IMG/VR virus record: IMGVR_UViG_3300035698_002855 | Location: 1-40,528 of that record | Direction: 5' to 3' (one strand) | Source: a virus | Length of the DNA: 40,528 nt | Shown here: in pieces, positions 1,571-24,645 of the stretch | Layout: each line of letters begins with the position of its first letter | Numbering within the stretch: position 1 is the stretch's first letter | Notes under the pieces: generated by a model | What the model saw: the letters and a program-made list of their open reading frames with translations, nothing else | What the model was told of the DNA's origin: nothing | The model's database searches: none | Position numbers and translations under genes: made by a program

Positions 1571-2701
1571 TTAGATAGTATTGACCAGGCCTCCGGCATA
1601 AGTGGCTCTCCAGTCAAGCCGTGTGACGCCACATACCAGGCGGACTCTGTAGAAGACGTTATCAGTTGCGAAGTCTCCGCTCATCGGGTTAATTGATCCA
1701 CCGCCGACAGTTACCTTGTCGCTTGCCTTCATGCAGATTTCAGGTCGTTCATGTCCCGAAAGATGTGCAAACTCCAGGGCTGCGATGTCATTCGGGTCGG
1801 AGAACAGATACCATGCGGTATTCCCATCCACAGCATCCATTATAGGCAAGTAAGGGTCAACTATAAGAGTCAAGCCCATCTGTGAGACCACGTTGTTGGT
1901 CGGGTATGCTATCGCAGCACCCGCAGCAGCAGTCCACATCTTGTTAGCTGAAGTCAGGATTTGCATAGCGGTCATTTTTAACGCAGGTGGCACAACAAGA
2001 TATTTGGCTGCGTTCATTATAGGCTCACCACCGGCATCCACCCATCCGGCCATAGCTTCCAGACCGTTTTCAAGATTTGCAATGGTCAAGAGTGCCTCAA
2101 CCGCATTTACTTCTGTCGCTACGCCATCAGAGTACAGGTCACCAGCCGCATGGTTAGCGGCACTGTAGTCGGCTGCGTAGCGGTTGGTGAGTATCCGATG
2201 CTCAGTCCTTGTGGCAGCTTTGGCAAACCTCATCGGCGTATCCTTGAGGGCGTTCAGGTCATCGTTAACTATTGCCTCGTAGGATATGTCGAACTGACGG
2301 CCATATTTCAGGACTGCCAAGGTGAATTTAGCTTCATCCCTGTCACTTGCTTGGTATTCTCCTTTTTCAGGTACCAGGTCAAGGTGCTGGTCGCCACCGC
2401 TTATAGCAAAGCGATATGCGTCTTTGAAGTCTCTGACGGTAGACATTTTGGTAAAAGCCTTCCATACTGGGTCTACGGCTTTATAGGATGCCAGGACTTG
2501 CCTGTCAAACACATCACCAAACAGGTAAGGGAAGTCAGCGGTAGTTAGAGCTTCCTTTATTCGGTATTCATGTAGATGGGCTGGAACTCCATCGGCATTA
2601 CTGAGCAGATTGATAAACGCAGCCCTCTCAGCATCGGAATGTCTCCCACTTACGGGGACATACCCGCCCCAGTCCTCCATTAATTTCATTAGTTCAGGCA
2701 T
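1571..2701 (-). CDS. Major capsid protein (HK97 fold)
   Basis: A 376-residue protein placed directly after protease/scaffold and decoration genes, the usual position of the major head subunit. The N-terminal part (TTADFPYLFGDVFDRQVLASY) resembles Mu gpT-type and other HK97-fold capsid proteins, and the middle has the expected mix of long helix (residues about 150-230) and beta strands. The start has a strong ribosome site (AGGAGGAAATTCTAATG). It would form the icosahedral shell after cleavage or maturation by the upstream protease. Confident as capsid protein from size, order and sequence character; subfamily less sure. Confidence 0.85.
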   Translation of the reverse strand: MPELMKLMEDWGGYVPVSGRHSDAERAAFINLLSNADGVPAHLHEYRIKEALTTADFPYLFGDVFDRQVLASYKAVDPVWKAFTKMSTVRDFKDAYRFAISGGDQHLDLVPEKGEYQASDRDEAKFTLAVLKYGRQFDISYEAIVNDDLNALKDTPMRFAKAATRTEHRILTNRYAADYSAANHAAGDLYSDGVATEVNAVEALLTIANLENGLEAMAGWVDAGGEPIMNAAKYLVVPPALKMTAMQILTSANKMWTAAAGAAIAYPTNNVVSQMGLTLIVDPYLPIMDAVDGNTAWYLFSDPNDIAALEFAHLSGHERPEICMKASDKVTVGGGSINPMSGDFATDNVFYRVRLVCGVTRLDWRATYAGGLVNTI

Positions 2702-7948: not shown

Positions 7949-9352
7949 CTACTCCTTTTTAATACTCTCCTTAAACTGCTTCAACACCCTAGTCAGTGCT
8001 ATACTGGGGTTCGCCTTTGATTCTTTGTTCAGAGCAGCTAAGACCTCAGTCGTATCATCTATACCCAGTGTCATCAAGGCTACCTGCTTAACGTCATCCG
8101 TATAACCTAACTCCGGCATGACCTGAAGTATCTGCAATAGGGCTGCGGCTGTCTGAGCTGCATCAGAGGGGGCGATAGCAGGGAAGTCCATATCAACATA
8201 CCACTTATCTGAAGGAACGTTATTATGAGCTAGGACAACCTCATTAATATCCTTGTAGGTGTCCTCCCATACCTTCTGATAGGACTGTATCATCTTCTGT
8301 ATGGGGAGCTCTACTGTCTTAGCTGTAGCCAGATTACCTGTTGATATATCCGCATAATACTGCTCGGAGAAACCAGCGGTCATCTCAATCATTAGCTTTA
8401 TCATTCTGCCGTCTTGATATGCCCCTTGCGCCCCAGTCTCTGCTTTAATAGGCGTGGTGTCAGAGCCCAAGTTCTCCAAGAGTTGTGAACCAGCGCTTAC
8501 GGTTTTGCCCTCAGTCTTTGCCTTGATAGCGTCTACCGTAGCCTGTCCGCCTGTAACCTTCGTGTGCCAAGCGAACTTAGCCAGCGCCAGCATAACCGCT
8601 ATCCTTGAAGACAGGAACTTGGTGTGGTATTTCATCCACACTAGGGCGGGCAATAATAACGGGTTGCCTCTCTGGGTGGTAGTGTTATAGCTTAAATGAT
8701 AGATTAAAGCATCATCAGTCTTTGTTACAGTATCACCCTGAGCGTTCTTAGCAGCCTCGTTTTTGATGTTGGTGGTGCTTCTATAGATAGTCTTGTGTGG
8801 GCTACTCTGTGCATCTGACCACTCCCTTTTATAGAACTTCACATCCTCTTTATCATCGGAGTCAGTGATTATCTCGGTTATCTCTAATGGGTCAATCCAC
8901 CTTATCTTAGCCTCACCCTTTGAACCTAAGAATAGAGCAAAGAACACCTCACCATCTATTAAGAGCTTATCAGATGACTTGCGTTGACCTCGTGCCGATA
9001 ATACATTCTGATTGGCCAGTGAACCCCAGAACAACTCAAGAGCCTTCTCTGCCTGCTTGTTCTTCTCATCGGGAACACTCCAATTCATACCAGTGCCGAA
9101 GGTATAGTCAGTCCATAGTCTAATCGACTGTTTGCCCATAGGGTCCTTAGTAGCATATAATCTTGATAGCTTGAGGTTAGTTATCCTTTCCTGTCCAGAG
9201 ATAACATCCCCCGTCTGACCACTGAGGTTTGTCCAACCTGCATCTTCTAATGCAAGGTCAGCCTCAACACTAGCTGTAGCTTCACGGACTAATATATCAA
9301 GCTCATCCCTTGGTGCTAATTCTCTTAACTTTGTATCTTCTCTATCTGTCAT
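7949..9352 (-). CDS. Portal protein
   Basis: A 467-residue protein directly after the large terminase and before MuF, the canonical portal position. Features fitting the family: an N-terminal segment with SRLYATKDPMGKQSIRLW, a central beta-rich region (GEVFFALFLG, IRWIDPLEI), a long helix, and a conserved segment GRMIKLMIEMTAG followed by TAKTVELPIQKMI typical of crown/stem regions. The protein would form the dodecameric ring at the capsid vertex, the docking site for terminase and connectors. Its ATG overlaps the stop of a 24-codon ORF (ATGA), implying translational coupling. Confidence 0.85.
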   Translation of the reverse strand: MTDREDTKLRELAPRDELDILVREATASVEADLALEDAGWTNLSGQTGDVISGQERITNLKLSRLYATKDPMGKQSIRLWTDYTFGTGMNWSVPDEKNKQAEKALELFWGSLANQNVLSARGQRKSSDKLLIDGEVFFALFLGSKGEAKIRWIDPLEITEIITDSDDKEDVKFYKREWSDAQSSPHKTIYRSTTNIKNEAAKNAQGDTVTKTDDALIYHLSYNTTTQRGNPLLLPALVWMKYHTKFLSSRIAVMLALAKFAWHTKVTGGQATVDAIKAKTEGKTVSAGSQLLENLGSDTTPIKAETGAQGAYQDGRMIKLMIEMTAGFSEQYYADISTGNLATAKTVELPIQKMIQSYQKVWEDTYKDINEVVLAHNNVPSDKWYVDMDFPAIAPSDAAQTAAALLQILQVMPELGYTDDVKQVALMTLGIDDTTEVLAALNKESKANPSIALTRVLKQFKESIKKE

Positions 9353-9560: not shown

Positions 9561-11018
9561 TTATAACTCCAATTCCCTTACTGCTTCCATAGCATCGTAT
9601 ATAACAACCTGCTCTATCGGTTCACCCGGGCCTCTCATGTAGGATAGTGCTTGTGTGGTGCTGTCTACCTGGTCATCATGCTCGGCATTGGGGAAGGCTG
9701 ACAGCTCTTCTATGTAATCAAATAACCAGGGTGCGTTCTCCGGTAAGTAAACTCTACCAGCTTCTATCAATGGTGTGGCTGAGTTCGCCCGGGCTACCTT
9801 GTTGGCATCTACCTTAACTGGTAAGACTGGTATTCTGGTGTTCCTCTGTAGCTCTTGAATTAAGGACTGGCCACTGGCCTTGTCCTCCACTATCACCACA
9901 TCTGGTAAATCACGTTCATATAAGGCAACAGCAACCCTCTTCAACTCAGGAAATTCAACCTTATCCCTCCATACATTCAGGAGGTAATAACCGTTCTGTG
10001 ACTCTCCCCATGTGGTGCAGACTGAGTAATCGTTCTGTGTCTTATCCTTAAAAGCTGTGTCCCAGCTATGTATCTTCCTTATGAATTGTGGGGGTGTGCT
10101 GAAATACTTCCACCATTCCCTCTTAATTATCTGACCTTCAGCTACTGTAGGATTGCCTTGATATAATGCTTCAAATGTCCGCATAGATGATGGGTCAGCT
10201 CGTAACTTATTCAGCACTTCAAGGGGATACCGCTCAGGCCATAACGCCTTACCATCCTTTATAGCAGGGAAGTGTAAGACTTTCCATTGGTCAGCTTCGG
10301 GATACAACTGCATTTGCCTTAACAGCCTGCCAACAAGGTCGTCAGGTGACCATCTCGTCATTACTACTATAATAGCAGCATCTGGCTCCGCCCTGGTTCT
10401 AAATACCTTCTCATACCACTCCCAGACCTTATCCCTTATCGTCTGGCTGGAGGCTTCCTCATCGTCTTTAACAGGATCGTCTATAATCCCAATATTGAAA
10501 CCCCGGCCTGTTAAACCTCCACCAATACCAACTGCGTAATAAGAACCGCCTTGCTTGGTACCCCATTCATGGGCTGCCTGGCGTTCTGGTACTACTGTCT
10601 CCTGCCCCGCCCTCTCTGGCCTATAGTGAATATCTGGAAACAACCGGTCCATCTCAGGGGATATGAATATGTCCCTAGCTTTCCTTGAATGTGTTAGTGC
10701 TATAGACTCAGCATAACCAGCCTGTACGATGTAGTCTTCAGGGTGCCTTGCCATATACCAGCACGGAAACCTTAAAGAGACTAATTCCGACTTACCGTGT
10801 CTCGGAGGCATCAATACTATAAGACGCTTTAACTCACCCCCCTCTATCGCTTCTAGGGCTTCTGATAGGGCTATAATATGAGGGGGTGTCTGGTATTCCG
10901 GTAGCGTGTATTGGCAAAAGGATAGTAGCCCCTTGCGAGCACTACGTCTTTTCAGTAGCTCCGTTGCCGCTTCTGCTGGTGTTATCTCCTTTTCCTGCAA
11001 TGGCAAGAAGTTCGTCAT
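9561..11018 (-). CDS. terL: Terminase large subunit
   Basis: A 485-residue packaging motor. The ATPase domain has Walker A MPPRHGKSE (70-78), Walker B IGIIDDP (176-182) and a coupling motif VMTRW (219-223). The C-terminal RNase H-like nuclease has SWDTAFK (Asp 320), VVIVEDKASG (Glu 378/Asp 379) and HDDQVD (447-452). All catalytic residues expected for a working enzyme are present. It cuts concatemers and pumps DNA through the portal. The start at 11018 has AGGAG and overlaps the small-subunit gene by 77 bases, an unusually long but plausible coupling overlap. Confidence 0.95.
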   Translation of the reverse strand: MTNFLPLQEKEITPAEAATELLKRRSARKGLLSFCQYTLPEYQTPPHIIALSEALEAIEGGELKRLIVLMPPRHGKSELVSLRFPCWYMARHPEDYIVQAGYAESIALTHSRKARDIFISPEMDRLFPDIHYRPERAGQETVVPERQAAHEWGTKQGGSYYAVGIGGGLTGRGFNIGIIDDPVKDDEEASSQTIRDKVWEWYEKVFRTRAEPDAAIIVVMTRWSPDDLVGRLLRQMQLYPEADQWKVLHFPAIKDGKALWPERYPLEVLNKLRADPSSMRTFEALYQGNPTVAEGQIIKREWWKYFSTPPQFIRKIHSWDTAFKDKTQNDYSVCTTWGESQNGYYLLNVWRDKVEFPELKRVAVALYERDLPDVVIVEDKASGQSLIQELQRNTRIPVLPVKVDANKVARANSATPLIEAGRVYLPENAPWLFDYIEELSAFPNAEHDDQVDSTTQALSYMRGPGEPIEQVVIYDAMEAVRELEL

Positions 11019-11670: not shown

Positions 11671-11696
11671 GTAGCTAGAATAAGTAAGGAGGTAAC

Positions 11697-11888
11697 ATGA
11701 ACGAAGAAAAGGACAGTTGGACACATGATGGGCAAGTATTCAATACAGGTGGTGAACCCTATCTCCTAACCCCTGGACTTAGAACTATCTGTATATCTGA
11801 AAGCGACCTCCCCAGGGACACACAGGGGATAGTGCTAGAGACCGCACAATCAAGTTCTGACCGATTAACTAGGAAAGTAAGGGGATAG
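11697..11888 (+). CDS. First gene of divergent mini-operon, 63 residues
   Basis: Starts at the ATG at 11697 with a perfect AAGGAGG site and its own consensus promoter. The product is small, polar and has no motif I recognise (begins MNEEKDSWTHDGQVFN; a beta-rich middle). It is one of only four genes on the plus strand and is followed closely by the next gene. A regulatory or host-takeover role is plausible from its separate transcription, but unproven. Confidence 0.65.
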   Translation: MNEEKDSWTHDGQVFNTGGEPYLLTPGLRTICISESDLPRDTQGIVLETAQSSSDRLTRKVRG

Positions 11889-11889
11889 T

Positions 11890-12033
11890 ATGAGAAGATT
11901 TATAATACTAAAAGGTAAGGCTAAAGATGTATTCAGGGAATTAGCACTAATGGCTGTAGCTGATAGATTGCTGGAGATGAAATTCGGAAGGAATACAGAA
12001 TATCTAGAGCCTGAAGATTTTTGCAGGAATTAA
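11890..12033 (+). CDS. 47-residue hypothetical protein
   Basis: Begins one base after the stop of the previous gene (TAGTATG), ribosome site AAGGGG. The product is basic at the N-terminus (MRRFIILKGKAKDVF) and largely helical. Part of the four-gene plus-strand unit; no family recognised. Confidence 0.5.
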   Translation: MRRFIILKGKAKDVFRELALMAVADRLLEMKFGRNTEYLEPEDFCRN

Positions 12034-12056
12034 GGAAGGGAAAAAGGAGGCTTAAC

Positions 12057-12182
12057 ATGGAGAAGGTAATTTATTTAAGGGTTGAAGAGGAACGTAAGAA
12101 GGCTCTGGAGATTAAAGCTAAGGAGTTCGGATTAACTCTTGCTGGGTACTGTAGGTTTATACTGTTTCAATCTTTGAAGTAA
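12057..12182 (+). CDS. 41-residue ribbon-helix-helix-like protein
   Basis: Strong AAGGAGG before the ATG at 12057. The sequence (KVIYLRVEEERKKALEIKA, then FGLTLAGYCRFILFQS) has a beta strand followed by two helices, with spacing like Arc/CopG/MetJ ribbon-helix-helix DNA-binding proteins. It may act as a dimeric repressor of its own promoter or of the divergent terminase operon. Family call is by pattern only. Confidence 0.5.
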   Translation: MEKVIYLRVEEERKKALEIKAKEFGLTLAGYCRFILFQSLK

Positions 12183-12191
12183 GGAGGAATT

Positions 12192-12242
12192 ATGAAAGGT
12201 GGGAAATACAAAGGGAAAGAATACCCCGAAGGATTAGATTAA
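12192..12242 (+). CDS. 16-residue basic peptide
   Basis: A tiny ORF with an ideal site (AAGGAGGAATTATG) right after the ribbon-helix-helix-like gene. The product MKGGKYKGKEYPEGLD is Lys/Gly-rich. The quality of the ribosome site argues for translation, but function is unknown. Confidence 0.35.
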   Translation: MKGGKYKGKEYPEGLD

Positions 12243-13184: not shown

Positions 13185-13379
13185 CTATTGCTCCTCTGGT
13201 ATACCGTAGACATTTATAATATTAGTGTCCAGGGTAAAAGTCTTAGTGGGCGATTCCTCTGCCATTTTCCATAGTGCATTATACATGGCTGCCAACCCTA
13301 TCTCATAAGCCTCGTACTCAGGCATGGTAGCGTCAGGCTTTATCTCCGTGTATCTCTTTATTCCTTCGGGCCTATACAT
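13185..13379 (-). CDS. Hypothetical early protein, 64 residues
   Basis: The start is set at the ATG at 13379 because it overlaps the TAA of the upstream gene (TAATG) and follows GGGAGGGG; a GTG four codons earlier is less likely. Helical middle (YEAYEIGLAAMYNALWKMA). No known family. Confidence 0.55.
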   Translation of the reverse strand: MYRPEGIKRYTEIKPDATMPEYEAYEIGLAAMYNALWKMAEESPTKTFTLDTNIINVYGIPEEQ

Positions 13380-13624
13380 TACCCCTCCCACTGTATTATA
13401 CCGTCATTTACAGCACTTGATACTTCAGCTATATCCTCAGTGCTTACCATTATACCTAAATAGACACCTAGTATCTCATGTATCACCGCTTCACGCTGCC
13501 TTAATAGTGGTAAGCTTGAGTCAACAGTTATCTCCGCCTTGACTATCCTTGTACCACCACCTGTATCATGGTTGGATAAGTCCTCTTTACTGACAGTTAT
13601 GTCTATTATCTGTTCCTCACTCAT
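13379..13624 (-). CDS. Conserved early protein with VIHEIL helix, 81 residues
   Basis: An acidic N-terminal beta region is followed by a helix LLRQREAVIHEILGVYLG. The HE dyad resembles the start of a zinc-metalloprotease HExxH helix, but the second histidine is absent, so catalysis is not supported. GAGG precedes the ATG at 13624. It lies directly downstream of the structured non-coding region. Function unknown. Confidence 0.5.
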   Translation of the reverse strand: MSEEQIIDITVSKEDLSNHDTGGGTRIVKAEITVDSSLPLLRQREAVIHEILGVYLGIMVSTEDIAEVSSAVNDGIIQWEG

Positions 13625-13639
13625 TCAATCCTCTTATAC

Positions 13640-13910
13640 CGGGGCTAGGTCAGGACTCGTTGTGTGATACCTGACTGGCTCAATTAACCAGAGAGAGTTG
13701 CGAACTCTATCTCCGACACATTGCCACCCCAATGTGTAATTCTTTTATGCTGGGGCTTCGGGTTTGCAACGGTGCTATTAGGTATGTCTGGAATTGGGTG
13801 TAGTCCTCACCAGCGCAATAGTCCGCAGACCAGAGCCGTATCTACCTTTTGTTGCAATTAGTGGCTACCCTTTTACTACACTCAGCTTTCGCTACCCCAG
13901 CATCACTCAT
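13640..13910 (-). ncRNA. Candidate structured non-coding RNA or long leader
   Basis: A gene-free stretch of 360 bases (13625-13984) in a region where genes otherwise touch. Pairings: 9-bp long-range ATGCTGGGG/CCCCAGCAT (13895-13903 with 13747-13755), a nested 7-bp TTGCAAC/GTTGCAA (13764-13770 with 13851-13857), a GAAA-capped hairpin (13884-13893), a UGCG-capped hairpin (13821-13830), an 8-bp hairpin ACACATTG/CAATGTGT (13716-13737), a hairpin at 13691-13713, and GTCAGG/CCTGAC (13649-13675). The only ORFs are very short: one at 13963 with a good GAGG site encodes MEPVSS. Known classes (RNase P, tmRNA, tRNA) do not fit. Confidence 0.55.
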
Positions 13911-13984
13911 TGGGAGAGTAGTTGCTTGATAACCTACAATTATTTATGACGAGACTGGTTCCATTTTATTCACCTCACTCAATC

Positions 13985-14314
13985 TTAAAGAACTCCCTTA
14001 GTTTCTTGCTCATATATCACTTCTAGTTTAAGGCTTCTAGCTAACTCTAATTCCTGTCTAGCACCAACAGACTCAACCCACCCCGTCAACATATATATCG
14101 TATCACAGCGAGCTAAAATTTCAAGGTCGCCCTCTATGAATTTATCATCACCGCCGAGCCTACTCCCCATGAATATTGAATTGGTGTGAGGGCATATAAC
14201 AGCCCAGCCTTCACGCCAGAGTTTTTCAGCTTCCCTTCTAGCGTGCATGATGTTTTCAAATACTTCATTCTCACTGTCAGCCCGATACCGCCCTGCAATA
14301 TATATTATCTTCAA
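13985..14314 (-). CDS. DUF4406 protein, nucleoside 2-deoxyribosyltransferase-like
   Basis: A 109-residue protein with a TTG start at 14314 behind AAGGAG. The pattern IYIAGRYR, NIMHARREAEKLWREGW, VICPHTN, and CDTIYMLTGWVESVGA matches DUF4406, a Rossmann-like family related to nucleoside deoxyribosyltransferases. A role in nucleotide metabolism is inferred; the acidic/aromatic active-site residues are not all verifiable here. Confidence 0.75.
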   Translation of the reverse strand: MKIIYIAGRYRADSENEVFENIMHARREAEKLWREGWAVICPHTNSIFMGSRLGGDDKFIEGDLEILARCDTIYMLTGWVESVGARQELELARSLKLEVIYEQETKGVL

Positions 14315-23749: not shown

Positions 23750-24037
23750 CTAATGTTTTATATTCTCGCTTCCCTTTGAACTGCCGTTTCTACCAGGTAC
23801 TTTCAATAATGCCCTGCACTTCATACAATACTTCTTGATAATAACTGTCTCACCACATTCAGGGCAGGTTGCTTCTTCGCTATCACACCTTAAATCATAA
23901 TATGCAAGACAGGGCTCTTCATCATGGCAACCCTCACACCCGTCATGCTTTCTACTACAACCATTAAGCTTCCTTACCAGATAGTCAATGTTGTGCTGGT
24001 TCCTGTTCTGTACCATCAGTGCTGCGCCTTCTCTCAT
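23750..24037 (-). CDS. Double zinc-ribbon early protein, 95 residues
   Basis: The start is set at the ATG at 24037, which overlaps the TGA of the upstream gene (ATGA) behind GGAG; the longer frame (to 24085) is inside that gene. It has several Cys clusters: CSRKHDGCEGCHDEEPC, then CPECGETV and CMKC, so at least one zinc ribbon. Probably nucleic-acid-binding; no known family. Confidence 0.6.
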   Translation of the reverse strand: MREGAALMVQNRNQHNIDYLVRKLNGCSRKHDGCEGCHDEEPCLAYYDLRCDSEEATCPECGETVIIKKYCMKCRALLKVPGRNGSSKGSENIKH

Positions 24038-24645
24038 CTCCCAAATAACTCCTTCATAAGTTTGTTGAGTTCCCTCTTTTGCCATTTAATTTCGGCAGAG
24101 TAGGCGGCATAGCGGGCGGCATAGTAGGCGGCAGAGTAGGCGGCAGAGTAGGCGGCAGAGTAGGCGGCAGAGTAGGCGGCATAGTAGGCGGCAGAGTGGG
24201 CGGCATAGTAGGCGGCAGAGTCGGCGGCAGAGTAGGCGGCATCCAATTCTTCCTTAGTTGCCTCACCCTTATTATAAAGCCTTGCTGTTTTGATGGCGTT
24301 CCAGCTTCTTTCGTCTGTAACTTTAGCTTTCTTTAAGGCTCGTTCCGCACAACTGCAACCCCATTCCCTTAGAACGTGAGTGGCATCCCTGGCATCTATG
24401 AGCTTGCGTTTCCTTGACACGAACTTAGTAGCATCTTGTTCTAATGGCTCTGATACTTCCACGATACAAGCCATGCTACCCTGTGCGTAACCCAAGGCGT
24501 CATACCAACTAGAGGAGGAGTGATAACCCCTCTCACAGAGTTTGATTTTACCTCGCTTAATCTCCCTTTCTTCCCCGATAGTCCACCTCTTTTCTTTTCC
24601 GTAGCCTCCGTGCATATCGTCTTTTAAGAAATGGTAAGCCTTCAT
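24034..24645 (-). CDS. DUF7666-like protein with tetrapeptide repeat tail
   Basis: A 203-residue protein. Residues 1-125 have a pattern (WTIGEEREIKRGKIKLCERG, then SWYDALGYAQG, then KFVSRKRKLID) found in a phage/bacterial family of unknown function that often ends in Ala-rich repeats. Residues about 137-184 are twelve copies of a four-residue unit (YSAA with YYAA, HSAA, DSAA variants), encoded by a 12-bp tandem repeat. A short basic helix closes the protein. The repeat is prone to slippage, so length may vary between strains. Confidence 0.6.
   Translation of the reverse strand: MKAYHFLKDDMHGGYGKEKRWTIGEEREIKRGKIKLCERGYHSSSSWYDALGYAQGSMACIVEVSEPLEQDATKFVSRKRKLIDARDATHVLREWGCSCAERALKKAKVTDERSWNAIKTARLYNKGEATKEELDAAYSAADSAAYYAAHSAAYYAAYSAAYSAAYSAAYSAAYYAARYAAYSAEIKWQKRELNKLMKELFGR
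24094..24237. repeat. 12-bp tandem repeat, 12 copies
   Basis: Units GGCAGAGTAGGC and near variants (GGCATAGTAGGC and others) repeat without interruption. In the minus-strand gene they encode alternating YSAA/YYAA. On the plus strand the same repeat gives a spurious Gly/Val-rich open frame. Confidence 0.95.

Follow-up and report, generated by a model that had tools for sequence, protein, structure and literature searches.

The longest minus-strand gap of the 40.5-kb viral record analyzed here (the window, meaning the whole of that stretch) almost certainly holds a real conserved structured RNA, whose 162-nt core (13745..13906, minus strand) recurs in two other viral contigs, L130 and L134. As judged from the aligned sequences, the three RNAs constitute a new family of pseudoknotted phage RNAs, and all three members come from metagenomic viral contigs. 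It is covariation in the two relatives, not folding energy, that lifts the RNA above chance.

Nearly all genes of the window lie on the minus strand; the terminase large subunit is encoded at 9561-11018 and the portal at 7949-9352. The gap (13625-13984, 360 nt) is bordered by the gene for a DUF4406/nucleoside 2-deoxyribosyltransferase-like protein of 109 aa (13985-14314, minus strand) and by an 81-aa gene of no family (13379-13624, minus strand). An earlier note had described it as a gene-free stretch. The absence of genes was borne out, as scoring against the codon usage of the phage itself puts all six frames on the non-coding side (-0.04 to -0.24 per codon), with most genes neighboring the gap scoring +0.24 to +0.40 per codon. 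The gap is also the longest on its strand, but five others of 171-245 nt exist. In the window, a copy of TGAGTGAGG stands at each end of the gap (13973-13981 and 13615-13623) within a 25-nt repeat at 72%, and removing the gap together with one copy would place a TTG start for the 81-aa gene directly behind the stop codon of the DUF4406 gene, an insertion-like arrangement. Elsewhere in the window, three repeated strong ribosome sites (AAGTAAGGAGG...ATG) on the plus strand at 11682-12196 suggest that a few short genes are grouped there, between the minus-strand operon and the terminase genes, and the 203-aa product of positions 24034-24645 contains a long tract of AAYSAAYYAAY repeats.

Fold and covariation of the RNA

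Comparison of the three sequences shows a predicted fold that consists of a closing helix, P1, and a long irregular arm, P4-P5-P6-P7, with the loop of P7 folding back to form P3 with the strand before P4. All elements lie on the minus strand of the window. P1 is a 9-bp helix between a 5′ strand, AUGCUGGGG (13895..13903), and a 3′ strand, CCCCAGCAU (13747..13755), exactly where the earlier note had placed it (13903-13895 with 13755-13747). Three different helices of 9 bp occupy this position, with CUGCGGGGC/GCCCCGCAG in L130 and GCUUGUUAG/CUAACAAGC in L134, where P1 is extended to 11 bp. The pseudoknot P3, which was absent from the pairings first listed for the gap, joins GUGUAG (13876..13881) to CUACAC within the P7 loop (13798..13803); the pairing is the same in L130 and becomes GCAAAG/CUUUGC in L134. 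In the arm, an invariant AAAA linker precedes the 5′ strand of P4, GGGU (13867..13870), which pairs with ACCC (13760..13763). P5 follows as UUGCAAC (13851..13857) paired with GUUGCAA (13764..13770), replaced by UUAUGC/GCAUAA in L130, and P6 pairs AGGUA (13843..13847) with UACCU (13780..13784). The apical P7 hairpin (13788..13813) has the stem CUGG/CCAG and the loop UGAGGA-CUACAC-CCAAUU; its stem reads ACGG/CCGU in L130 by hand alignment, and a longer form, UCUGG/CCAGA, was dropped for CUGG/CCAG, which suits L130. Two further hairpins, P2 (UAGC-GAAA-GCUG with a GNRA loop, 13883..13894) and P6.1 (with a UGCG loop of the UNCG type, 13815..13836, from the minimum-energy fold), are identical in L134 and are considered optional since both are missing from L130. 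Both tetraloops and the nested helices named in the earlier note are thereby confirmed. The unpaired segments UGAG, AAAA, AGCC, GAUACGGCU, UGAGGA, and CCCAA are identical in all three sequences. AGCC (13863-13866) and GGCU (13834-13837), neither of which varies among the three, may form a second pseudoknot.

Across the three sequences, 97.6% of cells are paired and 18 of the 46 pairs change on both sides. None of 500 shuffles scored as high as observed, and slid controls, in which partners were shifted by 1-3 columns, gave only 0-2 pairs changed on both sides. The covarying pairs sit in P1, P3, P5, and P6, so that several helices show compensatory change beyond chance, as expected of a conserved structured RNA. 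Compensatory change in the 9-bp helix had been named in advance as a test, together with covarying pairs in relatives generally, and all nine P1 pairs change on both sides (to GCUUGUUAG in L134 and CUGCGGGGC in L130). In P3, three of six pairs change between L134 and the other two sequences; L130 accounts for the changes in P5 (4/7 pairs) and P6 (2/5), and P6 is interrupted by a single mismatch in either relative. P4 is paired in all three with a single change from G-C to G-U, and two P7 pairs change on both sides in L130, again by hand alignment. P3, P6.1, and P7 were not part of R1, the covariance model built from the window's 162 nt alone and used for the alignment; support for these elements is therefore not a product of fitting. 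The two weakest points of the fold are the P6 mismatches and the small number of sequences.

The window alone would have left the RNA unproven, because its folding energy is no better than that of dinucleotide shuffles (z = -0.01 over the full 360 nt and -0.5 over the core). Shuffling the 162-nt core, which was chosen by its own helix ends, yields three perfect helices of at least 7 bp, one of them of 9 bp, in 0.3% of cases, and the helix count of the whole gap is ordinary against shuffles (P 0.14). The helices behind the earlier description of dense structure exist, but the energy of the gap does not set it apart. The description also extended too far, since the conserved part covers about 160 nt, not 360, and the RNA is not a "large ornate" one. 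A leader of about 30 nt (13905..13937) may be added at the 5′ end by alignment to that of L134 (GUAG...CUAC; CU-UCCCAWU-AG), though it is tentative because the two leader hairpins of the window have 2 nt in common. The six-codon ORF noted at 13964-13944 (MEPVSS, 13944..13964 on the minus strand) does carry a GAGG Shine-Dalgarno sequence, and the three additional hairpins before the next gene (13649..13737, minus strand) are present, but neither the ORF nor the hairpins are common to the relatives and all lie outside the RNA.

The possibility that the gap is an ordinary intergenic spacer with chance pairing, or a decayed or antisense gene, was also considered. The shuffle-like folding energy would agree with it, as would an antisense frame: over the core it is uninterrupted in L134 and, in another register, in L130, and it is open in part in the window. 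This reading is contradicted by the covariation and by homologs at E values of 1e-16 and 5e-41. Between the window and L134, 22 of 36 differences fall within the 30 columns of P1 and P3, and every frame shows 15-18 non-synonymous vs. 1-4 synonymous codon changes. The earlier note held that codons conserved in one frame would speak against an RNA; non-synonymous changes instead prevail in every frame, and no reading frame is open in all three sequences. Coding in any frame is thus ruled out by codon usage in six frames, the non-synonymous excess, and the lack of a common open frame, and chance pairing or a former gene is extremely improbable. What the note had proposed, a phage non-coding RNA, is supported by the covariation in two relatives and the absence of a conserved frame.

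Relatives and known RNA families

Structural genes are shared between the window and 43 viral contigs with a related terminase, in which blastn and nhmmer did not find the RNA region. R1 gave no match on the fetched pieces of the terminase-related contigs, and a single clear match on the whole records behind those pieces, at 62 bits and an E value of about 1e-16; this is L130, in the record of L024, the only one of the 43 relatives to have the RNA by covariance model. L130 and the window have in common GGGUAGCC, 20 bases, and GAUACGGCU, and a scan of viral contigs for this pattern gave seven hits, of which one was already known, one was L134, and five were unrelated and set aside. Scored with R1, a model never exposed to it, L134 reaches 150 bits (E 5e-41). 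Both relatives match R1 over positions 1-162. An exact 18-mer match in L129 was rejected as lying inside a protein gene. Among the terminase relatives, the gene for the large subunit is split by about 735 nt in L044 and L045 and by 510 nt in L047; these splits match no known intron in Rfam and may be novel introns, inteins, or insertions.

Searches beyond these contigs added no members. The RNA region and both relatives gave nothing or short chance matches by blastn against phage and plasmid records, and when viral contigs were searched for proteins like the products of the 81-aa and phosphoesterase genes, no relatives came up. No RNA match was obtained in up to 1,932 bacterial genomes (five draws around named groups, two of them overlapping), and the RNA may be more widely spread than this sampling shows. 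The window terminase pointed to no host, its best bacterial match having 53% identity and its best phage match 38.5%.

At the gathering threshold, neither the window nor L132, which holds the L130 RNA, matched any of the 4227 models of Rfam 15, which include RNase P, tmRNA, introns, and riboswitches. The RNA regions of the window, L134, and L130 gave only chance-level scores down to an E value of 10. ARAGORN called no tRNA or tmRNA gene in the window, L130, L132, or L134; together with Rfam, this upholds the initial statement that the RNA is not RNase P, tmRNA, or tRNA. A stretch of L130 (about 2030-2160, minus strand) resembles a degenerate leucine tRNA and is called by neither ARAGORN nor Rfam.

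Transcription signals and genomic neighbors

The RNA lies upstream of same-strand genes in all three phages. In L134, a predicted sigma-70-like promoter, TTGACA/TATAAG (1894-1923, with TATAAG 18 nt on), was recognized by eye about 50 nt before the core; the automated promoter rule demands a final T and therefore does not list it. An intrinsic terminator (2139-2162) directly follows P1, and downstream of it are the terminase small subunit, a terminase large subunit of a different type, and the portal. The predicted promoter of L130, TTGACA-17-TATTAT with a TG (extended -10), has 11 of 12 matches about 40 nt before the core, and P1 is followed by 6 nt, a strong Shine-Dalgarno sequence, a short ORF, and the phosphoesterase gene. 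This phosphoesterase (L130:3-1397, minus strand; L132:6149-7708) carries a large in-frame, intein-like insert and has 519 aa, compared with 292 aa for its window counterpart. No good promoter immediately precedes the RNA in the window, and no terminator follows it; a promoter-like site with 10 of 12 matches lies before the DUF4406 gene (14379-14352).

Sequence comparison shows the RNA in three phages, whose terminases are of at least two types, and since it occurs with different terminase types, its job would not be tied to one virus lineage. Its neighbors differ, comprising the DUF4406 and 81-aa genes in the window, the short ORF and phosphoesterase in L130, and the terminase small subunit in L134. 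With neighbors that differ and a core that is nearly invariant, the RNA would be either functional in its own right or a general element acting in cis, as opposed to a switch for one gene.

Possible functions

The promoters upstream of the RNA in two relatives, combined with the L134 terminator, imply a short separate transcript. The proposal is a transcript of about 160-240 nt that two relatives would make from a dedicated promoter, one of them ending it at a dedicated terminator, with the operon transcript as the possible source in the window phage. The folded core would then bind a host or phage factor, acting neither by translation nor mainly by antisense pairing. Whether the RNA has its own transcript and acts as a folded molecule is evenly balanced. 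Taken as a whole, the best explanation, and one that is slightly favored, may be a stand-alone pseudoknotted RNA of a new family that acts through its conserved core. Weighing against a stand-alone RNA are the Shine-Dalgarno sequence of L130, placed about 6 nt behind P1 in the manner of a regulatory leader, and the lack of a good promoter before, or a terminator after, the RNA of the window.

The main rival to the stand-alone RNA is a cis-acting leader, either a put-like antiterminator or a riboswitch. In the put-like case, the nascent RNA would fold, bind RNA polymerase, and let the polymerase pass later terminators of the operon, whatever the genes, as in HK022. Unrelated downstream genes are expected from such an element, and in all three phages the RNA does lie ahead of genes on the same strand. 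The L130 RNA directly follows a strong promoter, and the L134 order of promoter, RNA, intrinsic terminator, and terminase/portal operon resembles a phage late leader. The proposed folded RNA would also share with put RNAs the ability to work without a phage protein (PMC9378689). However, the HK022 put RNA consists of two stem-loops in about 70 nt (PMC9378689), vs. a 162-nt core closed by P1 and bearing a pseudoknot, a different size and shape and no kinship in Rfam. In addition, the window RNA follows a gene instead of a promoter, and the terminator of L134 may serve only to end the RNA. Put-like antitermination is unlikely yet deserves weight. Riboswitch aptamers such as SAM-I or THF have a loop-to-junction pseudoknot, and the RNA described here has a similar layout, with a variable P1 that closes a conserved core of internal loops and a loop paired to a junction strand. 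A small molecule bound by the core would steady P1 and so control the terminator in L134 or the ribosome site in L130; the 3′ strand of P1 (P1′, AAGCCC) of L134 is able to pair with the terminator arm (GGGCUU), and the L130 Shine-Dalgarno sequence abuts P1′. This reading would be weakened, as shuffled sequence yields alternative P1′ pairings just as good (P 0.33, 0.11, and 0.48) and the downstream genes, in three cases only, share no pathway or other feature. No Rfam riboswitch matches the RNA, and an attenuator or translational switch of this kind has a rather low probability.

A ribozyme or an RNA gene cassette moving between phages would account for the three different genomic contexts and for TGAGTGAGG at both gap edges within the 25-nt repeat (72%). 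However, no transposase or nuclease gene adjoins the RNA and no ribozyme or intron of Rfam matches it; the edge repeat, seen in the window, includes a purine run like that of a ribosome site and may be chance. A mobile or catalytic element is quite improbable.

Other phage RNAs offer partial likenesses. GOLLD and ROOL are structured non-coding phage RNAs whose function is not known, and ROOL has multiple pseudoknots. GOLLD members are often more than 800 nt, and both RNAs often lie near tRNA islands (PMC12286853), whereas this RNA is about 160 nt, has no tRNA called nearby, and has no Rfam match, which places it outside these families. The abiF and type III antitoxin RNAs are likewise phage RNAs upstream of a gene with a terminator after them, but they comprise repeats of a 33-37 nt motif before the AbiF toxin gene (PMC12373285), in contrast to one unrepeated 162-nt domain with no AbiF toxin gene identified.

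Where an RNA that is not in Rfam combines covariation support with a pseudoknot and dozens of invariant bases, a specific biochemical role is often found. It is possible, if tentative, that the RNA represents a functional class new among small phage RNAs, such as a ribozyme, an antiterminator that consists of RNA only, or an RNA that captures a host factor. It would be built on a fold with no counterpart in Rfam, in which the long arm bends its end loop back onto the preceding strand, and which is common to phages with unrelated terminases. The three-member seed alignment and structure are now available for others to expand.
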